Assembly (NCBI GenBank): GCA_017430145.1
Contig: JAFRNP010000175.1
Location: 1 to 35,762 of the forward strand
Source of the DNA: Clostridia bacterium
GTDB taxonomy: Bacteria; Bacillota; Clostridia; Oscillospirales; Acutalibacteraceae
DNA: 35,762 nucleotides
Direction of reading: 5' to 3'
Part shown: piece by piece, positions 4,297-30,588 of the stretch
How the letters are laid out: every line of letters begins with the position of its first letter
Position numbering within the stretch: the stretch's first letter is position 1
The notes under the pieces: generated by a model
What the model saw: only the letters and a program-made list of their open reading frames with translations
The model's database searches: none
What the model was told of the DNA's origin: nothing
Program-made: the position numbers and the translations under genes

Positions 4297-6777
4297 TCAG
4301 TCGGCCGCCTCCCCGGTCAGGACGGTCCAGCCCTCCAGGCTGCCCTCGGCGACGCGGATAGATACTTCGCCGTTTCTGGCCGTGACCGTACCCAGTACGC
4401 CGGGCAGGCACAGCGGCAGCGTGACGTTCTGGGCGGCAGGCTGCAGCCGGATGGTCCGTTTTGCTGCGTCGACCTGCAGGCCCAGGGCGGCGGTCAGCGT
4501 GGTCCAGCTCGACATGGGGCGGGTGTAGTGGTGCCCGCACTCCCAGTGGTCCCACAGGGCGCCGAACCGGGCCTGGTTGTCGCGGATGGCCGTGACGAGG
4601 GCGTCGGCGTCTTCGCGCATGCCGACGCGCAGGCACAGCGCGGCCATCGCGTAGCCGATGCCCGTCCAGGTCGCTTCGACCTGGCAGTTTTTGTGGGAAT
4701 ACCGCGTGGTATGCCGCCCCTCGGGGCAGGAGGCGTTTATAAGGCCGCCGTCCGGGTCGAAGTTCCTTTCAAGGATGACTCGCATGACCGCCCGGATCCG
4801 CTCGTCGCACAGGTTGCCCCCGATCCCGGCCGCCCGCAGGAACCATTCGCCGTCGAGCTGGTCGGTCATCAGGGTCTCGTCCTTTTCCGTACCGGCGCGC
4901 CACAGGTCGTAGTACTCGCTGTTCCACAGTCTGTTTTCAAGGGAGGCAAGGCCTTTTTCAAGCAGGCGCCTCCACGCTTCGGCGCGCGCGGGGTCGCCCG
5001 TTTCGTCAGCCATACGGGCGGCGGCCTTCAGCGCGGCAAGCCACAAAAGAGAGATATATACCGGCGTACCGGAAAAATTCCAGGCGTCGTAGGTGTTTCG
5101 CTTCGTATCCCGGTCGGGAAGGCCGTCGCCGTCGCTGTCGAGGGCGCCGATGGAATCCACGGCGCTTACCACGTGCGGCCACATGTCTTTGAGGTACCCG
5201 GCGTCGCCGGTATACAGGTAGTCGCGAAGCACCATCAGTACGAACTGGTTGTTCATATCCACGCGTTCATACCCGCTGCCCACGTGGTCCAGATCCGGCG
5301 TGAAGAAGTGATGCACGCGCCCGTCCTCCCGCTGGAAGGCGGCGCCCATGCGCATCTGCCCCAGCTGCAGATCCGGAAACAGGGCCAGCAGGCCGAACGA
5401 CGCGTGGTAGGTGATGTCCGTCGTGTGGAAGCCGCAGAACCCCAGCCCCTCCCACAGGCCGAACTTGCCGTCTTTCAGATACCAGGAACACTTGACGATC
5501 GTGCTCAGGTGCCCGCTCCAGCAGTCCGGATACACCGCGGGCAGGTCCGTATCGTACAGAAGCCGTGCGAAAGCGGCGGCTTTGTCAAAAACCTCCGGCC
5601 GGTCCCGCAAAAAGGCGTTTGCCTGCGCGGCGCCGTCAAACAGGTTTTCATAGTAATGCCCGAGCCGCCGCCCGTCTTCCGTATAGTGGTTCGGGAAATA
5701 CCACGTCAGGATAAAGCGCACGGTTTTTTTCTCCCCCGGGGCCAGCTGCACCGTGCTGCAAAGGGCAGCCGCGCCGAACTCTTCGGGGTACAGGATATGC
5801 AGGCGGTCCTGCCCGCGCAGGCTTTTGATAAACGTCGCCCGTTCCTCCCGGTTTTCAGGGAACGCGGGGCTCAGATCGCGGATGCGGTTTAAAACGGACG
5901 CGGCAAAGGGGTATCTGATATAGGCGCTGAAAAGCCCTGAAAGCGCTTCGTCGGACAGCGCAAACGGATCTTCGGGGATCTCCGGCGGCAGCGTCCCTGC
6001 GCCGCTGTTCGGCAGATCTCCCGTTTCACGGAAGCCGAACAGCACGGATTCCTGGCTGACGCCGTAATTGTCGTCGTCGAAGATATATTCCCTTATAAAG
6101 CGCCGGAACTCTCCCGCAACGTAGCTTTTTTCGCCGTCACCGCCGATGCTCAGGCACGTTTCGCCGCAGTTCGGCGCATCGGTCTGCTGCGCCGGGCGCA
6201 TGGTGACGCTGACGCTTTCCCCGTCTGTGGTAAGATCGTTCCGGCACCCGCCGTTGTTGCAGAAATCCGGCACGAGGGTACCGAGCAGGCTTACCGTCAG
6301 CGGTTCGTCCCCCGGGTTTCCGATTTCAAAATCCATATAAAACCCGGGCGTTGCGGCAACGTCCGTCTGATGCGGCACGAACGGCGCTGCTGCGCGCCCC
6401 GTCAGCCGGCAGGGCAGCGCCGCGTCCTCGTAATGAAGCTCGCAAACGGGGAACCGCCCGTCGAAACGGATCCGTTCGACCGGTTTGTTCCAGGGGAACA
6501 GGCGGTAGGTGAAATCGTCCGGTTCGGTCCGCATGCCGAGCTTCCGCACGACGGGCCGCCTGCCCGCCTGTTTGGTCCGCACCCAGAACGACAGCGCGCC
6601 CGTGCTGCCCTCGCCGTCGTCGGCCTTATTCTCCCAGCAAACCTTTGTCAGCCGCGGCGGGTTCGCGATCTGCCAGTAGTGGAATTCGCCGTCGGGCATG
6701 AGCTCTACGCTGCCTGCGCCGATGCCCCCCAGCGCGATCCCGCTGCTGCTGGGCTTGGTCATGATGATCTCTGCCAT
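4297..6777 (-). CDS. GH116-family beta-glycosidase (glucosylceramidase/GBA2-like)
   Basis: An 826-residue enzyme without signal peptide. It has the two-part layout of GH116: an N-terminal beta-sandwich (about 1-380, starting with the GIALGGIGAGSVEL motif typical of the family) and a C-terminal (alpha/alpha)6 barrel. Glu443 in LWEGLGFCGFHTTDI aligns in position with the known GH116 nucleophile, and Asp564 in NTYDAWNFSG fits the acid/base. GH116 enzymes hydrolyse beta-glucosides, beta-xylosides or N-acetylglucosaminides with retention. The substrate here is unknown; an internal location suggests imported oligosaccharides or glycosides. AAGGAG precedes ATG 6777. It follows the FMN-binding protein gene by 29 bases, so the two are likely co-transcribed. 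The catalytic residue assignment is by eye. Confidence 0.88.
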   Translation of the reverse strand: MAEIIMTKPSSSGIALGGIGAGSVELMPDGEFHYWQIANPPRLTKVCWENKADDGEGSTGALSFWVRTKQAGRRPVVRKLGMRTEPDDFTYRLFPWNKPVERIRFDGRFPVCELHYEDAALPCRLTGRAAAPFVPHQTDVAATPGFYMDFEIGNPGDEPLTVSLLGTLVPDFCNNGGCRNDLTTDGESVSVTMRPAQQTDAPNCGETCLSIGGDGEKSYVAGEFRRFIREYIFDDDNYGVSQESVLFGFRETGDLPNSGAGTLPPEIPEDPFALSDEALSGLFSAYIRYPFAASVLNRIRDLSPAFPENREERATFIKSLRGQDRLHILYPEEFGAAALCSTVQLAPGEKKTVRFILTWYFPNHYTEDGRRLGHYYENLFDGAAQANAFLRDRPEVFDKAAAFARLLYDTDLPAVYPDCWSGHLSTIVKCSWYLKDGKFGLWEGLGFCGFHTTDITYHASFGLLALFPDLQLGQMRMGAAFQREDGRVHHFFTPDLDHVGSGYERVDMNNQFVLMVLRDYLYTGDAGYLKDMWPHVVSAVDSIGALDSDGDGLPDRDTKRNTYDAWNFSGTPVYISLLWLAALKAAARMADETGDPARAEAWRRLLEKGLASLENRLWNSEYYDLWRAGTEKDETLMTDQLDGEWFLRAAGIGGNLCDERIRAVMRVILERNFDPDGGLINASCPEGRHTTRYSHKNCQVEATWTGIGYAMAALCLRVGMREDADALVTAIRDNQARFGALWDHWECGHHYTRPMSSWTTLTAALGLQVDAAKRTIRLQPAAQNVTLPLCLPGVLGTVTARNGEVSIRVAEGSLEGWTVLTGEAAD

Positions 6778-21043: not shown

Positions 21044-22906
21044 ATGAAAAAGAAGCAGAAAAAATTATTGGCGCGCATCCTGATCGCGGCGGCGCTGTTC
21101 GCCGCCGTGTACGCCGCCGACAAACTGACGGCGGCGCCCGGCTGGGCGGTGCTGCTGTGTTACCTCGTGCCGTATTTTACGGCGGGGTACGACGTGCTGC
21201 TGCGCTGTTTCAAGAGCATCCTGCACGGGCAGGTGTTCGACGAGTGCTTTTTGATGACGCTGGCGACCGTGGGGGCGCTGGTGATCGGGGAGTACCCCGA
21301 AAGCGTGTTCGTGATGGTGTTTTACCAGACCGGGGAGCTGTTCCAGAGCCTTGCGGTGGAAAAGAGCCGAAGCGAGATCGCGGGGCTGATGGAGCTGTGT
21401 CCCGATACGGCGGTGCGCCTGAACGGACAGGGGGAAGAGGAAGAGATCCTGCCCGAGGAGATCGAAGCCGGCGACGTGCTGATCGTGCGGCCCGGCGAAA
21501 AGATCCCGGTGGACGCCGAAGTGCTGGAGGGCGCTTCCGGCGTGGATACCGCGGCGCTCACGGGCGAAAGCCTGCCGAGGGACGTTGCGGCCGGCGACCG
21601 GGTCATTTCGGGCTGCATCAACCTGACGGGCGTATTGAAGCTGCGTGCAGCGTGCGCGTTTGAGGATTCTTCGGTCGCGCGGATATTGGAGCTGGTGGAA
21701 AACGCGCAGCTCAACAAATCCAAAAGCGAAAGCTTTATCACAAAATTTGCCCGGTGGTACACCCCTGCGGTCGTGGCAGGGGCGGCGCTGCTGGCGCTGG
21801 TCCCCTCTCTGATCACAAAAGACCCGGCGACGTGGGTCTATCGGGCGCTGATCTTTTTGGTGGTGTCCTGTCCCTGCGCATTGGTGATCAGCGTGCCGCT
21901 GGCGTTTTTCAGCGGGATCGGCGGCGCGTCCTCGCGGGGAATCCTGATCAAAGGCGGCAACTATCTGGAGGCGCTCGCAAACGTCACGACCGCCGTGTTC
22001 GATAAAACCGGCACACTGACGAACGGCGCCTTTGCGGTGACCGCGGTCGTTCCGGCGGCAGGCGCGGACGAAAAATCATTGTTGGAGGGCGCCGCGGCGG
22101 CGGAGCATTTTTCAAACCATCCGCTGGCGCTGGCGGTCAAGGCGGCGGCGGGATGTGAGGCCGTCCCGGACGACGCCGAAGAGCTGCCGGGGCTCGGGAT
22201 CGTCGCGCGTATCGGCGGCGATACGGTGGCGGCAGGCAGCCGCAGGCTGATGGAACGGCTCGGCGCCGAAGTCTCTTTAATAAAGGAACCCGACGGTACG
22301 GCGGTGTACGTTGCGAAAAACGGAAAGTTCCTCGGCGTCCTGGGCCTTGAGGACGTGCCGAAAAAGAACGCGGCGAAGGCGCTGGACGCATTGAAGGCCG
22401 AGGGCGTGAAAAAAACGGTGATGCTCTCCGGCGACCGGGCGGCGGCAGCCGAAAAGGCAGGCAAGACGCTCGGGATCGACGAGGTGTACGCAGAGCTTCT
22501 GCCGGCGGACAAAACAGCGCATATGGACCGGCTTTGCAGGGCGCAGGGGAAGAACGAACGGCTGATGTACGTGGGCGACGGCGTCAACGACGCGCCGGTG
22601 CTGGCCCGTGCGGATATCGGCGTCGCCATGGGGGCGCTGGGCGCGGACGCGGCGATCGAAGCGGCGGACGTGGTGATCATGGACGACGATCTGACGAAGC
22701 TTGCGCTCGCAAAGCGGATCGCAAAAAAAACGAAGCGGATCGTGCGGCAGAACGTGGTTTTCTCCCTCGGGGTCAAATTTGCGGTGCTCATTCTTGCGGC
22801 GTTCGGCGCTGCGAACATGTGGCTCGGTATTCTGGCGGACGTGGGCGTGGCGGTGCTGGCGATCTTAAACGCCATGCGGTGCTTAAAGGTAAAAAAAGAA
22901 AGTTGA
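21044..22906 (+). CDS. cadA: P1B-type Zn/Cd/Pb-exporting ATPase (CadA/ZntA-like) without HMA domain
   Basis: A 620-residue heavy-metal pump with the CadA transmembrane layout. Motifs in order: TGES (actuator), Cys276-Pro-Cys278 (membrane metal site), Asp320 in DKTGTLT (phosphorylated), SNHPLA (HP motif, nucleotide site), GDGVND (511-516) and Asp599 in the last helix (LADVGVAVLAILNAMR), equivalent to the Asp that makes the P1B-2 group select Zn/Cd/Pb. The N-terminal metal-binding domain of typical CadA proteins is absent, matching the separate HMA gene upstream. The ATG at 21044 lacks a ribosome site and follows a hairpin with a T-tract, so the start or the mode of initiation is uncertain. Last gene of the operon. 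Confidence 0.93.
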   Translation: MKKKQKKLLARILIAAALFAAVYAADKLTAAPGWAVLLCYLVPYFTAGYDVLLRCFKSILHGQVFDECFLMTLATVGALVIGEYPESVFVMVFYQTGELFQSLAVEKSRSEIAGLMELCPDTAVRLNGQGEEEEILPEEIEAGDVLIVRPGEKIPVDAEVLEGASGVDTAALTGESLPRDVAAGDRVISGCINLTGVLKLRAACAFEDSSVARILELVENAQLNKSKSESFITKFARWYTPAVVAGAALLALVPSLITKDPATWVYRALIFLVVSCPCALVISVPLAFFSGIGGASSRGILIKGGNYLEALANVTTAVFDKTGTLTNGAFAVTAVVPAAGADEKSLLEGAAAAEHFSNHPLALAVKAAAGCEAVPDDAEELPGLGIVARIGGDTVAAGSRRLMERLGAEVSLIKEPDGTAVYVAKNGKFLGVLGLEDVPKKNAAKALDALKAEGVKKTVMLSGDRAAAAEKAGKTLGIDEVYAELLPADKTAHMDRLCRAQGKNERLMYVGDGVNDAPVLARADIGVAMGALGADAAIEAADVVIMDDDLTKLALAKRIAKKTKRIVRQNVVFSLGVKFAVLILAAFGAANMWLGILADVGVAVLAILNAMRCLKVKKES

Positions 22907-22947
22907 AAGACTTCAAAAGCTATAGAATCAGGTTTTTATTGCCCATC

Positions 22948-22977
22948 CTGCATGAAATTTCACCTTTGTGGTATCAT
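22948..22977 (+). promoter_or_regulatory. Extended -10 promoter of the recombinase gene
   Basis: TGTGGTATCATA at 22967-22978 has the TGn extension before -10 TATCAT (22972-22977). The -35 region (22948-22954) is poor. The same TGTGGTATCATA motif recurs at 23918-23929, right after the recombinase gene. GGAGG follows at 22984. Confidence 0.5.
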
Positions 22978-22997
22978 AACCGCGGAGGTGTTTTTTT

Positions 22998-23834
22998 ATG
23001 GCATGGAATCCATCAGAGCGTGAACGGTATCGGGGCTGGCTGGTACTGCAGGAAAAAAGCCCGCATACCGTTCGCGCGTATCTCGGGCACGTTTCGTCGT
23101 TTGCGGCGGAGGTTGGCGCAGGCGAAGTAAGCCGGGAGGCGGTGCTCCGCTTCCGGGAGGGGCTTACACGGCGGGGGCGAAAGCCCACAAGCGTGAATGC
23201 GGCGCTGTGCGCGGTGAACAGCTATCTGAAGTATATAAACAAGCCCGAATGCCGCGTACGGCAGGTTAAGGCCCAGCGGCGTGTGTATCGGGAACCGGCG
23301 CGCACGCTGAACAGGGAGGAATACAAGCGCCTGGTGGCGGCGGCGCACAGGCTTGGGGACGCACGGATCGCGCTTATCATGCAGACACTGTGTTCCGCGG
23401 GGCTCAGGGTCAGCGAGCTGCGGTTTGTGACCGTGGAGGCGGCAGCCAGGGGCGAGGCAGCGGTGCGGTGCAAACGGAAAACGCGCGTTGTATTTCTGGT
23501 CCCGAAGCTCTGCAGGGCGCTTCTGGCGTACGCAAAAAAGCAGAAGATCACGTCCGGGCCGATCTTTGTCACCCGCGGGGGAAAACCGCTGGACCGCAGC
23601 AATATCTGGCGGCGGATGAAAACCCTGTGCGTCTCGGCGGAGGTGGCGCCCACCAAGGTGTTCCCGCACAATCTGCGGCGGCTGTTCGCCTGCAGCTTCT
23701 GGACGCAGGAGAAGGATATCGTAAAGCTTGCGGACCTGCTGGGCCACAGCAGCGTCAACACCACCCGTATTTACCTGCAGACCGACGGCGAGGACCACCG
23801 GCGCAAAATGGAGAAAATGCGGCTGGTGTGCTGA
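22998..23834 (+). CDS. Tyrosine recombinase (XerC/D- or phage-integrase-like)
   Basis: A 278-residue protein: N-terminal SAM-like core-binding domain (about 1-95; SPHTVRAYLGHVSSFAAEVG) and C-terminal catalytic domain with Arg137 (AGLRVSEL), His224-x2-Arg227 (PHNLRR), His250 (LGHSSVNTT) and nucleophile Tyr259. All five are present, so it should be active. No excisionase, phage or transfer genes are nearby, unlike for an integrase. It lies just left of a pair of inverted 30-bp palindromes (24308, 24541) flanking a promoter, so the likely job is site-specific inversion of that segment. It could instead be a remnant of a lost mobile element. GGAGG upstream of ATG 22998. Confidence 0.92.
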   Translation: MAWNPSERERYRGWLVLQEKSPHTVRAYLGHVSSFAAEVGAGEVSREAVLRFREGLTRRGRKPTSVNAALCAVNSYLKYINKPECRVRQVKAQRRVYREPARTLNREEYKRLVAAAHRLGDARIALIMQTLCSAGLRVSELRFVTVEAAARGEAAVRCKRKTRVVFLVPKLCRALLAYAKKQKITSGPIFVTRGGKPLDRSNIWRRMKTLCVSAEVAPTKVFPHNLRRLFACSFWTQEKDIVKLADLLGHSSVNTTRIYLQTDGEDHRRKMEKMRLVC

Positions 23835-23880
23835 GCGGCAGCGCTCCCCGAAAAAAAACAGAATAAAGCCGTGATTTATC

Positions 23881-23912
23881 AAAAAACCGCCTGTCTCAAA
23901 TGACAGCGGCGG
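23881..23912 (-). terminator. Leftward terminator behind the recombinase gene
   Basis: On the minus strand a stem of CCGC/GCGG plus CTGTC/GACAG (2-base bulge) is followed by TTTTTT (23886-23881). It would stop transcripts that leave the invertible segment leftwards before they run antisense into the recombinase gene. Confidence 0.6.
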
Positions 23913-23928
23913 CGGAATGTGGTATCAT
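23900..23928 (+). promoter_or_regulatory. Rightward extended -10 promoter after the recombinase gene
   Basis: ATGACA (23900-23905), 17-base spacer ending TGG, TATCAT (23923-23928). It points into the hairpin-rich stretch and the inverted sites, with no gene directly behind it. Confidence 0.5.
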
Positions 23929-23935
23929 ACCGTAA

Positions 23936-24307
23936 ACAATATAACTCAACTTTCCCACATAAAAAAGCACTTTAGCAGCAATAAGCCTGACCGTTTAGGG
24001 CAAAAGCCTATCCTTCCCCCTTATAGCACGGCGCACCTGTCGGAGCGTTAAGAAAATGTCCCGGCGGGACATTTTCAGCGCAGACCGACCGGGCTGTGCC
24101 CGGCGGGGCAACGCAAATCGGGTAATAGGAAACGTAGGTTCAGACGCGGCAGACATATCATATCCGCCGCAGGCGGCACAGATGATTACGGCTATCGCTA
24201 TTTGGTCCTGCCTTCGGCAGATATTCTATTCCTCGCCCGGAAGGGCATATACGGCGCAGGTGCGCCGCACTGCAAGGCTTTCCGCCATCGGGGAGGCGGA
24301 AAAACAA
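23936..24307. other. Hairpin-rich non-coding stretch between recombinase and left site
   Basis: No ORF with a ribosome site was found on either strand. The most regular element is a perfect 11-bp inverted repeat with a 3-base loop, GAAAATGTCCC / GGGACATTTTC (24052-24076). Several mini-hairpins of the CCGCC-gca-GGCGG and CTGCC-ttc-GGCAG kind follow to 24260. The stretch could encode a structured RNA transcribed from 23929 rightwards or from 24352 leftwards, or be decayed dispersed repeats. I recognise no known RNA family. Confidence 0.45.
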
Positions 24308-24337
24308 ATTACCACATAATCCGTATTATGTGGTAAT
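24308..24337 (+). repeat. Left inverted site of the putative invertible switch
   Basis: A palindrome with 13-bp arms, ATTACCACATAAT / ATTATGTGGTAAT, around an asymmetric CCGT core (24321-24324). The reverse complement matches the site at 24541-24570 at 25 of 30 positions, including the whole 16-bp centre. Confidence 0.85.
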
Positions 24338-24359
24338 CTGCCGAGTTTATAACGTACTT

Positions 24360-24388
24360 ATTCTAACATATCCATCAACTGTTTGCAA
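24360..24388 (-). promoter_or_regulatory. Extended -10 promoter inside the invertible segment (leftward as captured)
   Basis: Minus strand: -35 TTGCAA (24388-24383), 17-base spacer ending TGT, -10 TAGAAT (24365-24360). Both hexamers and the TGn extension match the sigma-A pattern well. I saw no comparable promoter on the plus strand of this segment. Confidence 0.75.
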
Positions 24389-24398
24389 GTATTTTCAC

Positions 24399-24484
24399 AA
24401 AAAAACCGGTAATCTGCGCGGTTTTTTTGCAAAAACAGCATACGAATCCGGACCTTTTTTACGACTGCGACAAAAAAGGTCTGG
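24399..24484. terminator. Two bidirectional terminator-like hairpins inside the segment
   Basis: AAAAAAACCG / CGGTTTTTTT (24399-24428), and CCGGACCTTTTTT / AAAAAAGGTCTGG with one G-U pair (24448-24484). They lie behind the promoter in either orientation, so they would insulate it from read-through of the rightward promoter at 23900. Confidence 0.65.
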
Positions 24485-24540
24485 GTTTCCGTTGTCCAAA
24501 CGCTGCGAAAAGCGGCCATGGGCCGTTATGCCGCGCGCGT

Positions 24541-24570
24541 TTTACAACATAATACGGATTATGTTGCAAA
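24541..24570 (-). repeat. Right inverted site of the putative invertible switch
   Basis: Centre CATAAT-ACGG-ATTATG (24548-24563), the exact reverse complement of the centre of the left site. The outer arms are diverged (CAAC / GTTG pairing instead of CCAC / GTGG). It lies 118 bases before the surface-gene start codon. Confidence 0.85.
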
Positions 24571-24687
24571 GGAGGGTAAGGTACTTCTTACAGGTGTGCG
24601 AAGCTGCGCGGGATATGACTGCCTGCGGCGTATTTTTTGTCGGCGCCGCGGCGTGTATGAAATATCTGAAAGGAGATTTTTTAGAAC

Positions 24688-27600
24688 ATGAAAGGATCCA
24701 AAAAAACCCTGTCCGTCATCCTTACGCTGGTAATGGTCCTTACGATGCTCCCCGCGATCTCGATCACCCTGACCGAACGCGCAAGGGCGGACGCCTGGGA
24801 CGGGACCTATACCGACGCGTCCGGTTTTTTAGAGAACATTTCCGCATTCGGTATCACGGATGAAAACGCCTTTGCCTATTTCGCGAAGACGGTGACCGCC
24901 GGCACCACCTACGCCGGCATGACCGTTTCGCTTGAAGCCGATCTGGATATGGGTAACGTGGACTTTGAGGGTATCGGCGAGACCGGGCACGCCTTTGAAG
25001 GGACCTTTGAGGGTAACGGACACACCATTTCCAACGTGAAAAACCCGAAGGCTGCGGCGGCGGGCCTCTTTAACGCGGTCGCCGGCGGCGCGGTGATCCA
25101 AAACCTGAACCTTGTAAACGTGCAGGTCACCGATACCGCAAACAGCAAGCACGCCGCCCTGATCGGCGGCGCGGTGGCAGGCTCGGTCGCAAGCACGCCG
25201 GTAAAGGTGCAAAACTGCACCGTCACCACGGCGGATATCAAGGGGATCGATAATACGGCGGCGCTGATCGGGTTCTGCTCCGCGCCCCTGACCGTGACCG
25301 ACTGCTCCGCGAGCGGCGTCACGGTCACCGCAACCGGCAAACAGATCGGCGGTATGGTCGGCTATCTGAATAAAGCTGCAACCTTTACAAACTGCTCCGC
25401 CAGCGGCGTCACCGTCACAGCCAACGGCGCATATGTAGGCGGCATAGTCGGTTATACTTATGACGTTACAACTTTTACCAATTGCTCTTTTAACGGTTCT
25501 GTATCCGCAAAAGGCATAGGTGTAGGCGGCATAGCTGGGTACGTTTGGCATTATGGCTGCACTTTTACGGATTGTATCACGTCCGGTTCCATCACATCCA
25601 CAGGTGCGCAAGTAGGTGGTATGGTAGGCGTTTTTTATGACGATGGAACGATTACATTCAGACGCTGTACGAACAATGCGAGAGTTCAGGGAAAAGAAGA
25701 AGTCGGTGGAATTGAAGGCTATTCCAAAGGACAAAGTAATTTCTACTATTGTACAAATAACGGTAATATAATCGGAACGACCATGACTGCTCAACCCGAA
25801 ATTAGTTCAGCAGCAGGTATTCTCGGCAACAACGAGGATGATGAGTTGGTGTTTGACCATTGTACAAATACCGGTGCGATTTCGGGCCATCGCGGCGTAG
25901 GTGGTATTTGCGGCGATACCGGCGGTGACGGTACCGCCAACTTCACCTATTGCTATAATATGGGCGACGTCAGTGATCCGGATGGACGTGCAGCCGGAAT
26001 CTGTGCATGGTCTCATACGGATGGCGTTGAAAAGTTTTATTACTGCATCAACTATGGATACATTTATTCCACAAGCTATTGTGCAGGTATTGTGAATACT
26101 TCAGAAAACGATACAGGAACAAAAGTAGATATTTATCGCTGCGCAAACTTTGGTAAGGTATATTCTTACACAGGATACGACATCGGCGGCATCGCGAGTG
26201 AAAACACGGGCACGACGAAAGAGAGCTTTAACGTTGGAGAAGTGTGCAGAGACAGCAATTCGAGCTATTCTGCCGGCGGTATTCAAGGCGGCGGTGGCAC
26301 GGTGATGTGGTGTTATAACGGCGGCAATATCCACACTGCTAACCATGTAGCGGGAATCGGCTGCTATGCGACTACCGTTACGGCCTCCTACAACTATGGC
26401 AACATTACCGGCGGCAAGCACTGCACCGGCCAGATCGTCGGCAGTCACCAAAGATATGACTCTGCTAGTCACCAGTATCTCTACCAAGGAACCGGCTATT
26501 ATCTCAACACCGCTTCGGGTACTGCATATTCCAACGCAACGTCAAGAACGTCTGCGCAATTGAAAACCGTTTATCTGGACACAGCAAACACGCCCTTTGT
26601 GCAGGATACCTGGAACGTGAATTCCGGTTACCCGATCCACCAGTGGTGGAGGGACGAATACTTTAAGTTCCCGATTCAGTTCATGGACGGGGACGAGACG
26701 GTAAAAGAACTGGAAACCTACGGTTACAACACCGCGATCACCTTGCCGGAGCCCTCCAAAGCCGGCTATTACTTTGACGGCTGGTACACCGAACCCGAGG
26801 GCGGCACAAAGATCGGCAACGCCGGCGATATTTTTACGGCAGGCGTTTCCGCGCCCACCGACACGGTCGCCCTGAAAACCGTAACCAGCGAGCATAAGCC
26901 CTACGTGGAGCCGGATACCATTACGTTCTACGCGCACTTTACCAAAAAATCCACCGCCGTCACGCTGGACGGCAACGGCGCGACCACGCCCGGTACCGCT
27001 TCGGTCACCGCGAATTATGACTGCGAGATGCCCGCGTACGCCAGCTCGCCGCAGAGAGCGGGCTATACCTTTGCGGGGTACTTCGACGACGCGCTTGCCG
27101 GCACGCAGTATTATAACGCGGACGGCACCTCCGCAAGAAACTGGGATAAGATAGACGAAGCCTATACCCTTTACGCCCACTGGCTTGTAAACGGCGACAC
27201 CCCGTTTACGGTGGAGCATTACTATATGACCACCGACGGCGAATGGAACGATTACCCCGACGTGACCGATACGACCAAGACCGGTGAAACCGACGCCGAC
27301 GTTCTGCACGCCGACCTTGCGAACACCCCCACGTGGTTTATCTACAACGCCGGCAAGTCCGGCGTCAAATCCACGATCAGCGGCGACGGCTCCACGGTGG
27401 TCAAGCTCTATTACGACCGCGAGAAGATCAACGTCACCTTTAAGAATTACGACGGCACGGTCATTGAAACAAAGCAGGTGTATTACGGCGCAAACGCCGC
27501 CGCCCCGGATATGGCGCAGTATCTGAAAAAGGATCTCAGCCAGCATTACCGCTTTGTTTCCTGGACCCCCTCGGACTATAACCCCATTACCACGGCGCCC

Positions 27601-30588
27601 GTCACCGTGACCGCGCAGTACGTGCCCGAGGAACACAACTGGGGAGAAAAGGTCTGGACCCGCCTTGCCACCTGTACCGACGGCGGCGAGTACACCATGA
27701 CCTGCGACGACTGCGGGCAGAACAAAACGGTTTCGCCCACCTCCACGGGCCACGACCTGCACTACGTGGACTGCGGCAACGGCACGCACCGCATCTACTG
27801 CACAAGGGGCGACTATGAGCTGTATGAGCCGCACACCTTTGTGGACGGCGTGTGCGTCTGCGGCGCGACGGAAAGCGCCGGCAGCCTGACCGTCACCTTT
27901 AAGGACTGGCAGGGCGAGGTGATCCAGACCATCACGAACGTACCGGCAGGTTCCACGCCCATGTACACCGGCGGCAACGCGGCGCTGAAACGCGAATCCA
28001 CCGCCGCCGCGGATTATGAGTTTGATAAATGGGTGCAGGAGGACGACAATACCAAGCTTTTGGGGCCGGTCGAAACGGATACCGTGTACGTGCCCGTGTA
28101 TACCGAAACCGCCCGCCTGTATACGGTCATTTTCCTGAACTGGAACGGCGACGTGCTGGCGGAGGAACAGGTCCCCTACGGCGCTTCCGCCTTGGCGCTG
28201 GCGCCGACGGCGACAAAAGAGGACGGCCGCCACACCTACGCGTTCACCGGCTGGCTGCCGGATCTCGGCAGCATCACCAAAACCACCTACGCCGTGGCGC
28301 AGTTTGAGGCCACCGACGCCGCCAACTGGACCGTGACCTTTCCCGACGGCGACGGCGCGACCCTGTACACGACGAAGGTCGCCGACGGCGAAGCCGCCGT
28401 GTACCCCTTCGACGCACCCGAAAAGGAAGGCTATACCTTCTACTGCTGGGATAAGGATCTCAGCCGGGTGCGCTACGACCTCACGGTCAACGCCCTGTTC
28501 GTGCCCGACGGCGGCGACATGGTGGGCGTCACCTTTGTAAACTACGACAACCGTTTCCTGAAAGCGGACGTGATCGCAAAGGGCGCCGACGCCGTTTACG
28601 ACCTTGCGGACCCCGTAAAACCCGAGGACGGCACGTACGCCTATACCTTTACCGGCTGGGACAACGCCCTTGAAAACGTGCAAGAGAACACCGTGTTCAC
28701 CGCGCAGTTTGAGGCGCACTCCGCGCATACCCACACCTTTGTCTACGTCCCGCAGCAGGACGCGGTCTGCGACGCGCCCGGCTTGCTGGCGCACTACGTC
28801 TGCGACGACTGCGGCAGGCTGTTTAACGGGGACTATAACGAGATTTCCGTAACGGATCTCACCATTCCCGCCCTGAACCACCGCAACAAGACCTACGTCG
28901 CGGCTGCCGCCGCCACCTGCGTGGCGCCCGGCGCCATCGCCCACTGGTATTGCCCCGACTGCGGAAAGCGCGCGGTCGACGAAGCCTTCGGCAGCGTTGT
29001 GGAGGACGTATCGACCTCCATTGACCTTGTCAACGGCCACCGCTGGGCGGCGATCACCTACGCTTGGAGCGACGATTACGCCTTCGTCACCGCCACCCGC
29101 GCCTGCCTTTTGGACGCGGACCACAACGTGACCGAAACGGTAGAGACGACCTATGCGGAGGTCACGCCCGCCACGCTTACCGCCAACGGCGAGGGCAAAT
29201 ACACCGCCGCGTTTACAAACCCGATCTTTACAGCGCAGACCCAGACCGTGGAGATCCCGAACCTGGATCCCGACTGGTACGCCCCCACCTATGCATGGAG
29301 CGACGATTATGCGACCTGCACCGCCACGCGCGTCAACCGCATCGATCCCGAGATCAAAGAGACCGAGACGGCGGACGGCGTTTACGGCGTGATCCGTGAA
29401 GCCGCCTGCGGCGCCGCGGGCGAAGCCGCCTACACGGCGACCTTTGAAAATCCGGTATTTGCGGCGCAGACCCATTCGGTAATCCTTGACGCCCTTACGC
29501 ACAGCTACTCCGCGCCCGTTTACACATGGAGCGACGACCACAAAACGGTGACCGCCACCATGACCTGTGAAAACTGCGGCGACGTGGTCACCGAGACCGT
29601 CACGGCGACCGAAACGGTGATTACCCCCGCCACCGTGGAAGCCGAGGGCGAATCGACCTTTACCGCCGTATTTACGAACCCTGCGTTTGAGACGCAAACG
29701 GTTACCGTGCCGACCGAAAAGCTCGATCCGGCGTGGGGCGAGACGACCTACGTCTGGAACGAGGACCACACCGAATGCACCGCCACGCGCGTCAGCACCA
29801 CCGACCCGACCGTTTCCGAAACCGAGACCGCAACGGCCTCCTATGAGGTAACGCTTGCGCCTACCTGCCACAGCAAGGGCCTGGGCGTATACACCGTTAC
29901 GTTCGCAAATACCGGCCTCGGCTCCGCCGCTTACACGGTGGAGATCCCGGCGACCGGCGCGCACGTCTGGGGGACCGACGTCACCTATACCTGGAACGCG
30001 GACCACACCCTGTGCACGGCGACCGTCCACTGCGTAAACGAGGGCTGCCCCGCGACGCTCTCCGAGACCGCCGCCGCCACCTACGTGGATACCACCCCCG
30101 CCACCGAGACCACGGAGGGCGTGCGAGAGTACACCGTGACCTTTGAGGACGAACGCTTCGGCACGCATACCTACGTCGGCGTCGCCCCGGTGCTGCCGCA
30201 CGGTTACGGCGAGGTAATCACAAAGCACGTCAAGTTCGTCGCCTTCCCGCGCATGCACTACCGCATCGACGACGAGGGCGGACAGTATTTCGACGTGTAC
30301 AACTCCACCACCGTGGAGTGGGTCTCCGCGCGCCCGCTGCGCTTCAAGGTGATGCGCAACCAGAACTTTGCCTTTGACGACGCGGTCATCTACATGAACG
30401 GCGTGGAGCTTCAGAAGGATCCGGACGGCTGGTACACGCTGCCGAAGAACGCGGATTCCGTTACGATCTCCGCCGCCGGTTACGTGAACGACGCCGCTTC
30501 CTCTACCGGCAAAAAATCGATCTGGGATACGATCCTGCAGCTTCTCAACCGCATCATTTCGATCTTCAAGGCGATCGGCAAAAAATAA
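24688..30588 (+). CDS. Giant secreted multidomain surface protein (GLUG-like and InlB/Flg_new-type repeats)
   Basis: 1966 residues. A signal peptide (KKTLSVILTLVMVLTMLPAIS, cleavage near 35) starts it. Residues ~60-600 hold about a dozen GLUG-like repeats (GGMVGY, GGIVGY, GGIAGY, GGICGD) with paired cysteines (TNCSASG, YYCTNNG), predicting a beta-solenoid. Residues ~660-1345 hold Listeria-Bacteroides/InlB-B-type repeats (GYYFDGWYTEPEGG, VTFKNYDGTVIE, FLNWNGDVLAEE). CxxC modules lie near 1006, 1372 and 1420 (CDDCG, CPDCG). From ~1452 come five repeats of about 75 residues beginning YxWSDDxxxxTAT and containing FTNPxFxxQT. No LPXTG or SLH domain; it ends in an amphipathic tail (IWDTILQLLNRIISIFKAIG). 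Likely an adhesin or surface layer component. AAAGGAG lies 12 bases before ATG. Bases ~25425-26590 are visibly AT-richer than the rest. Confidence 0.9.
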   Translation: MKGSKKTLSVILTLVMVLTMLPAISITLTERARADAWDGTYTDASGFLENISAFGITDENAFAYFAKTVTAGTTYAGMTVSLEADLDMGNVDFEGIGETGHAFEGTFEGNGHTISNVKNPKAAAAGLFNAVAGGAVIQNLNLVNVQVTDTANSKHAALIGGAVAGSVASTPVKVQNCTVTTADIKGIDNTAALIGFCSAPLTVTDCSASGVTVTATGKQIGGMVGYLNKAATFTNCSASGVTVTANGAYVGGIVGYTYDVTTFTNCSFNGSVSAKGIGVGGIAGYVWHYGCTFTDCITSGSITSTGAQVGGMVGVFYDDGTITFRRCTNNARVQGKEEVGGIEGYSKGQSNFYYCTNNGNIIGTTMTAQPEISSAAGILGNNEDDELVFDHCTNTGAISGHRGVGGICGDTGGDGTANFTYCYNMGDVSDPDGRAAGICAWSHTDGVEKFYYCINYGYIYSTSYCAGIVNTSENDTGTKVDIYRCANFGKVYSYTGYDIGGIASENTGTTKESFNVGEVCRDSNSSYSAGGIQGGGGTVMWCYNGGNIHTANHVAGIGCYATTVTASYNYGNITGGKHCTGQIVGSHQRYDSASHQYLYQGTGYYLNTASGTAYSNATSRTSAQLKTVYLDTANTPFVQDTWNVNSGYPIHQWWRDEYFKFPIQFMDGDETVKELETYGYNTAITLPEPSKAGYYFDGWYTEPEGGTKIGNAGDIFTAGVSAPTDTVALKTVTSEHKPYVEPDTITFYAHFTKKSTAVTLDGNGATTPGTASVTANYDCEMPAYASSPQRAGYTFAGYFDDALAGTQYYNADGTSARNWDKIDEAYTLYAHWLVNGDTPFTVEHYYMTTDGEWNDYPDVTDTTKTGETDADVLHADLANTPTWFIYNAGKSGVKSTISGDGSTVVKLYYDREKINVTFKNYDGTVIETKQVYYGANAAAPDMAQYLKKDLSQHYRFVSWTPSDYNPITTAPVTVTAQYVPEEHNWGEKVWTRLATCTDGGEYTMTCDDCGQNKTVSPTSTGHDLHYVDCGNGTHRIYCTRGDYELYEPHTFVDGVCVCGATESAGSLTVTFKDWQGEVIQTITNVPAGSTPMYTGGNAALKRESTAAADYEFDKWVQEDDNTKLLGPVETDTVYVPVYTETARLYTVIFLNWNGDVLAEEQVPYGASALALAPTATKEDGRHTYAFTGWLPDLGSITKTTYAVAQFEATDAANWTVTFPDGDGATLYTTKVADGEAAVYPFDAPEKEGYTFYCWDKDLSRVRYDLTVNALFVPDGGDMVGVTFVNYDNRFLKADVIAKGADAVYDLADPVKPEDGTYAYTFTGWDNALENVQENTVFTAQFEAHSAHTHTFVYVPQQDAVCDAPGLLAHYVCDDCGRLFNGDYNEISVTDLTIPALNHRNKTYVAAAAATCVAPGAIAHWYCPDCGKRAVDEAFGSVVEDVSTSIDLVNGHRWAAITYAWSDDYAFVTATRACLLDADHNVTETVETTYAEVTPATLTANGEGKYTAAFTNPIFTAQTQTVEIPNLDPDWYAPTYAWSDDYATCTATRVNRIDPEIKETETADGVYGVIREAACGAAGEAAYTATFENPVFAAQTHSVILDALTHSYSAPVYTWSDDHKTVTATMTCENCGDVVTETVTATETVITPATVEAEGESTFTAVFTNPAFETQTVTVPTEKLDPAWGETTYVWNEDHTECTATRVSTTDPTVSETETATASYEVTLAPTCHSKGLGVYTVTFANTGLGSAAYTVEIPATGAHVWGTDVTYTWNADHTLCTATVHCVNEGCPATLSETAAATYVDTTPATETTEGVREYTVTFEDERFGTHTYVGVAPVLPHGYGEVITKHVKFVAFPRMHYRIDDEGGQYFDVYNSTTVEWVSARPLRFKVMRNQNFAFDDAVIYMNGVELQKDPDGWYTLPKNADSVTISAAGYVNDAASSTGKKSIWDTILQLLNRIISIFKAIGKK

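Follow-up and report, generated by a model that had tools for sequence, protein, structure and literature searches.

The window, the whole stretch of 35,762 nucleotides that was analysed, contains a short segment bounded by two inverted sites, with a tyrosine recombinase gene on its left and the gene of a giant surface protein on its right (Table 1). Both genes had been named in an earlier reading made from the letters alone (the sequence-only reading). The open reading frame of the recombinase, P0001, is intact and ends 473 bp before position 24308 as that reading had it, and the open reading frame of the 1966-residue surface protein, P0002, was confirmed to start at 24688. P0002 has a signal-like N-terminus, judged by a crude rule.

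Table 1. Features of the locus in coordinates of the window
Feature	Position	Strand	Basis or remark
Tyrosine recombinase gene, 278 aa (P0001), presumed invertase	22998-23834	+	Pfam Phage_integrase, 1.1e-21
Spacer, about 300 of 471 bp dispersed genomic repeats	23835-24305		26 matches in own assembly, of which 2 are the stretch
ATGACA-N17-TATCAT, promoter-like, outside the segment and directed toward the surface gene	23900-23928	+	score 12.8
Left crossover site, TTACCACATAAT-CCGT-ATTATGTGGTAA	24309-24336	+	core 24321-24324
Leftward promoter-like sequence in the segment, with extended -10, facing away from the surface gene	24360-24388	-	sequence match
Terminator-like hairpin behind the promoter, T runs on both strands	24388-24438		z -3.3 and -5.7 (two strands)
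Second hairpin	24440-24492		z -5.2 and -3.6 (two strands)
Right crossover site, TTACAACATAAT-ACGG-ATTATGTTGCAA	24542-24569	-	core 24554-24557; inverted relative to left site
Gene of the giant secreted surface protein (P0002, 1966 aa), presumed target of regulation	24688-30588	+	Listeria-Bacteroides repeats (Flg_new)

The two opposed palindromic sites with a shared 16-bp centre and an asymmetric 4-bp core, as claimed before, were recovered as arms of 28 nt each that are 89% complementary (25/28). The common centre, CATAATCCGTATTATG, stands in opposite orientation in the two sites. Outside its core the left site is perfectly palindromic, the right site has one arm mismatch, and the cores CCGT and ACGG are reverse-complementary to each other. 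The sites can also be read in an 11-6-11 arrangement, as TTACCACATAA-TCCGTA-TTATGTGGTAA (left) and TTACAACATAA-TACGGA-TTATGTTGCAA (right). In the assembly of the window (3.03 Mb, about 87% complete) the 18-bp pattern ACATAAT-N4-ATTATGT matched these two sites only. Inverted-repeat sites with matching crossover cores, as known from invertons, are thus present in the window, and a promoter inside the segment, another inverton feature, is present by sequence match. An Rfam search of 22900-24800 gave a single match, far under its gathering score.

The promoter-like sequence in the segment is TTGCAA-N17-TAGAAT with an extended TG (-35 at 24388-24383, -10 at 24365-24360), and 28 bp separate the end of its -10 from the left 18-bp site. 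It lies where a leftward extended -10 promoter had been described and scores 13.0 on the matrix used here, a score that is not rare in the window: over both strands 18 positions score at least 11 and nine at least 13. Because of these nine positions, and because another promoter-like site, outside the segment and about 760 nt from the surface gene, is directed toward that gene, the promoter call is weak on its own. The earlier statement that the surface gene has no visible promoter of its own held from the right site to the start codon, where no promoter-like site scores 8.5 or more, and missed the plus-strand candidate at 23900-23928. The two hairpins described between the sites are both present.

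Residues R137, H224, R227, H250 and Y259 of P0001, which we take to be the catalytic residues, occupy invariant columns across 30 aligned members. Together with the intact reading frame, these conserved residues make P0001 a putative invertase. It is the sole intact member of its recombinase family found in the assembly, where a search with P0001 at E 0.001 returned P0001 itself and one truncated remnant; including P0001, the assembly has seven tyrosine recombinase places. In a tree of 89 recombinases P0001 forms the longest branch (1.91), and it deviates at 6 of the 63 columns that are kept in at least 95% of its relatives, the most of any member. Assignment as a XerA, XerC or XerD equivalog was rejected, as the scores are far under the curated NCBIfam cut-offs (135 against 220, 114 against 335 and 107 against 330 bits, respectively). 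The nearest solved structures are those of a XerC-like protein (4a8e), XerA (5hxy) and XerD (1a0p).

The distance from P0001 to the 18-bp site is unusually long because dispersed repeats, with 24 further matches elsewhere in the assembly, fill the spacer. It amounts to 479 bp. Of the 34 paired loci that have a recombinase, 32 have a distance of -6 to 110 bp and one other (L084) has 263 bp. A near-perfect palindrome, GAAAATGTCCCGGCGGGACATTTTC, lies at 24052-24076 within this repeat-rich spacer. A decayed sister locus (L200) was noticed on contig C131 (G000:C131, about 5235-5456, minus strand), where the first approximately 75 codons of a P0001-like recombinase (62% identical) are followed by other DNA and then by a surface gene paralogous to P0002.

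Related cassettes and their matched cores

The pattern ACATAAT-N4-ATTATGT was present in 8 of 26 genomes of the genus, own genome included, and in 57 of 394 genomes sampled from the order; read backwards, it matched in 3 of the 394. A site-first collection of 51 regions (L061-L111) and five more gave, with the window, 57 loci, 56 of which carry the site at no more than one mismatch. A P0001 relative lies within 800 bp in 40 of the 56 site-first loci and has its 3' end toward the sites in all 40. The other 16 have no such relative within 800 bp, several of them being cut by contig ends.

A recombinase-first set was formed by the best 80 of 536 loci from a profile scan (recombinase alignment A1) of named genomes. 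These best 80 are for the most part MAGs of Oscillospiraceae and other Clostridia, often of gut origin, and a small number are isolates (e.g., Muricomes, Holdemania, Pseudoflavonifractor). At least 600 nt follow the gene in 65 of the 80. When the 750 nt behind the recombinase stop were searched without a motif, 60 of these 65 had an inverted repeat scoring 20/24 or higher, a count that takes any such repeat (L116 included), compared to 0 of 61 usable upstream controls. With the motif at up to two mismatches, a pair with reverse-complementary cores was found in 45 of the 65. Several loci without CATAAT arms follow the same plan with other arms, such as ACGGAAT or ACAAAAT, and on the tree of 89 recombinases those with the same arm class tend to group together (7 changes against a shuffled mean of 14.7). 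The site-first and recombinase-first sets are not independent, because they overlap, as do L122 and L096, and site-first loci were used to build the profile.

For comparison of the segments, 38 pattern-first segments (chosen with reverse-complementary cores) and 62 found de novo were combined. Of these 100, L116 (a repeat) and L140, L148, L183 and L189 (in which the script found no matched dyad) were dropped by hand and L120 and L149 as duplicates, leaving 93. Paired sites, matched cores, a neighbouring recombinase and a promoter-like sequence inside are common to the relatives and the window, and this likeness at the sequence level supports the earlier interpretation of the segment as a putative invertible promoter. 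Viral contigs carry the cassette too, since an inverted-repeat pair of at least 19/24 follows the gene in 10 of the 22 viral loci checked out of 56 (L210, L212, L213, L214, L217, L218, L220-L222 and L225; two are identical contigs); four of the 22 have no sequence after the gene. Viral locus L210 faces a gene that by eye is DNA methylase-like.

When sites were found by their arms alone, pairs 100-480 bp apart had reverse-complementary cores in 83 of 84 cases, identical cores in none and another relation in one; identical cores were found in 10 of 11 pairs less than 100 bp apart. The chance rate of a core match is about 1 in 256. There are 57 kinds of core among the 93 segments, and a palindromic core occurs in one of them against about 6 expected (p = 0.018, kinship ignored). 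Such matched and rarely palindromic cores are what strand exchange with core homology would demand.

We tentatively propose, with somewhat less than even confidence, that this large family of Xer-derived invertases uses a two-level address. The arms, mostly ACATAAT but also ACAAAAT and ACGGAAT and clustered on the tree, would be read by the protein and name the enzyme lineage, and the free, nearly always asymmetric 4-bp core would be a barcode of each locus that forces inversion and limits cross-talk within a genome. The proposal further includes promoters at whole helical turns from the site, switches that are mostly OFF in assemblies and a cargo as varied as surface proteins, SPFH proteins and defence-like helicases. 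A description of the core barcode or of the promoter spacing was not recognised in the open-access papers searched. Genome G371 has five site pairs with four different cores; the pairs at 2397994-2398192 (without a P0001 relative beside it) and 3745341-3745516 of G371:C1 both have GTGA. L112 and L115, which belong to one MAG, also have the same core. Because of these shared cores the barcode is not absolute.

Promoter direction and inversion between related genomes

Promoters in the segments were called with one matrix at a score of at least 11.5 and at 10-70 bp from the facing site, and a promoter directed toward the recombinase was termed OFF. Among the 93 segments, 59 had OFF calls only, 12 ON only, two both and 20 none, an excess of OFF (12 ON of 71, p = 1.3e-8, kinship ignored). 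Strong promoters lie 17-65 bp from the facing site, where 10-70 bp was allowed, with bunches near 27, 37 and 47 bp. A period of about 10.5 bp fits these distances, also when each 65% recombinase cluster is represented once (29 clusters), which suggests that the promoters may lie near whole helical turns from the facing site; this phasing is suggestive only, because periods of 10 and 11 fit about equally. Strong hairpins numbered 28 among the 71 segments, all of them behind the -35, and shuffles gave none as strong. Terminator-like hairpins at a threshold of -5 were directed with the promoter in 44 and against it in 53 of the same 71 segments, compared to 13 and 12 after shuffling. The promoter-like sequence of the window and the hairpin behind its -35 fit these places, and the state of the window is OFF-like.

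Comparison of orientation among relatives, proposed in the sequence-only reading, revealed both orientations. Of 57 pairs with calls, 54 gave the same answer by homology of the segment interiors as by promoter call, and two of the three exceptions are matches of 22 nt. In the related MAGs L150 and L154, which both have the core CCAT, the recombinase side aligns directly through the left site (82.6% over 821 nt), the interior matches the other strand, in mirror register, at 80.4% over 199 nt, and from the right site on the alignment is direct again (85% over 40 nt). The simplest reading of these alignments is that the interval between the sites was inverted after the two lineages parted. The earlier claim that inversion switches the surface protein on thereby gained its first half for the family, since homologous segments of L150 and L154 are oppositely oriented and the change occurs at the sites; for the window copy, inversion is a prediction. 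Flipping of the window copy is unseen, as no inverted copy of its segment was found in its own assembly or in 58 relatives. In IMG/VR, a search for one phage in two orientations gave like orientations only (pairs L220/L221 and L269/L270).

Some contigs were seen by eye to end no more than 4 nt from an 18-bp site (G428:C26, G189:C11, L119, L126 and L170) and others to start so that the site ends at base 141 (G416:C7, G189:C15 and G178:C2). Such contig ends fit, suggestively, assemblies in which both orientations are present.

Proposed mechanism and alternative explanations

We consider it very probable that the locus is a phase-variable promoter switch. The Xer-like tyrosine recombinase encoded upstream would bind the two near-palindromic, dif-like sites and exchange strands across their cores, which match only with the sites aligned in inverted orientation, and because of this the interval would flip. 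As the segment now lies, the promoter would face left, not toward the surface gene, and read-through from the left would be blocked by the hairpins (OFF). A flip would bring the predicted promoter to plus-strand positions of about 24490-24518, with a transcription start near 24525, and the transcript would cross the right site and enter the gene of the surface protein (ON), so that the state of the segment would set expression of P0002.

The main rival is a relic, that is, a locus of this family that no longer flips, with a drifted recombinase separated from its site by repeats and a promoter frozen in the OFF direction. It takes this place because P0001 is diverged, with the longest branch and most deviations of the family, because its distance to the site is long and filled with dispersed repeats, and because the sister locus has decayed; the reduction of the recombinase on C131, near a paralogous surface gene, to its first 75 or so codons indicates that decay does happen in this genome. 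We nevertheless regard a relic as unlikely, as P0001 has kept an intact reading frame and the presumed catalytic residues, both sites are well formed with matched cores, and the promoter and hairpin occupy the places usual in the family. That the sites serve another recombinase in trans, with P0001 as a bystander, is quite improbable. The six other tyrosine recombinase places in the assembly, and the two of four site pairs checked in G371 (of five) that have no P0001 relative beside them, speak for a trans-acting enzyme. Recombinase adjacency is common in relatives, however, and nothing in the assembly other than P0001 and the truncated remnant matches P0001 at E 0.001.

A terminator switch as in cwpV, for which there is a precedent in the parts of PMC2784873 used here, would have the fixed promoter-like site at 23900-23928 drive the surface gene, and inversion would alter termination instead of promoter direction. 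This site lies outside the segment and points at the gene, but at a considerable distance from it, and a promoter-like sequence is found inside the segment at the usual place of the family. In addition, the main hairpin, which forms on either strand, would be little affected by inversion, and we judge a terminator switch to be very improbable. Chance palindromes or a MITE are practically negligible as an explanation. Inverted repeats with hairpins can mark MITEs, and dispersal of the 263-bp unit had been named beforehand as evidence against a switch; no second copy was found in the assembly, where a MITE would be expected in multiple dispersed copies, so a MITE was rejected. Moreover, the arrangement is conserved, with matched cores, in many genera.

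Known systems and genes behind the switches

Invertible promoters beside tyrosine recombinases are well known, and the window switch is a further example of them. In the E. coli fim switch the promoter also lies in the segment and recombinase genes lie beside it, but there are two of these genes and the sites are different. The family of the window is probably inverton group 139, linked to tyrosine recombinase invertase group 35 in Clostridia (PMC11892184, 2025). In the parts of that paper that cover the group, 32 of 33 group 139 invertons are from Clostridia, nearly all near a tyrosine-type recombinase, two examples have about 205 and 227 bp between the repeats, and orientation shifts in reads are given for members from Intestinimonas and Clostridium sp. 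D5. Hosts, neighbouring recombinase and repeat spacing are alike, a likeness by description and not by comparison of motifs; core barcodes and promoter spacing, unlike in the account given here, are absent from those parts.

According to the parts of PMC2784873 used, the cwpV switch of C. difficile resembles the window in its XerC/D-type tyrosine recombinase (RecV), its inverted repeats (21 bp), its short segment (195 bp) and its surface protein. It differs in a promoter outside the segment, proposed terminator control and a recombinase gene that is not near the switch. Assignment of the window to this type by absence of a promoter from the segment was rejected, as a promoter-like sequence lies inside and one candidate also lies outside. 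Goldberg and colleagues (PMC5903667, in part) found short inversions from reads in many Clostridia, like those of the window family in size and host; their neighbours, unlike the surface gene of the window, are mostly signalling and chemotaxis genes. The E. coli dif site, GGTGCGCATAA-TGTATA-TTATGTTAAAT in the part of PMC3025954 used, shares with the window sites the 28-bp length, the 11-6-11 arrangement, the TTATGT half-site and the T-4N-A centre. The window sites differ from dif in having the TTATGT half-site on both sides, which makes both arms XerD-like, and in forming inverted pairs.

If the proposed switch is correct, the bacterium, which is uncultured and has relatives among the Clostridia, would hold its giant surface protein under heritable ON/OFF control. 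One cassette of recombinase, sites and promoter is seen to be reused in many genera in front of surface-protein, signalling and defence-like genes. The simple grammar of the sites makes such switches findable from sequence alone, and the varied matched cores are a natural collection for studying how tyrosine recombinases keep neighbouring switches apart.

Downstream proteins were available for 90 of the family switches, as three of the 93 segments have no open reading frame in reach, and 53 of the 90 have a signal-like N-terminus by the same crude rule. Pfam searches, which covered at most the first 560 aa and thus not the repeats of P0002 itself, recognised BspA-type LRR (8), Listeria-Bacteroides repeats (7), SPFH/Band 7 (7), SLH (5), dockerin (4), signal peptidase (4), ResIII (4) and HA helicase (4) domains. 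The C-terminus of P0002 and that of the surface protein at 7736-8284 of L010 have similar short, amphipathic-looking tails, in which no LPXTG motif was seen by eye; the shared tail is possibly an unfamiliar anchor. At L085, L141, L156 and L166 the switches precede helicase-like genes whose products have, by eye, an N-terminus in common, with ResIII and HA domains found in four targets, which suggests phase-variable defence. An N-terminus in common was also seen by eye in the proteins behind the switches at L067, L089, L102, L103, L131 and L155, and SPFH/Band 7 domains were found in seven targets.
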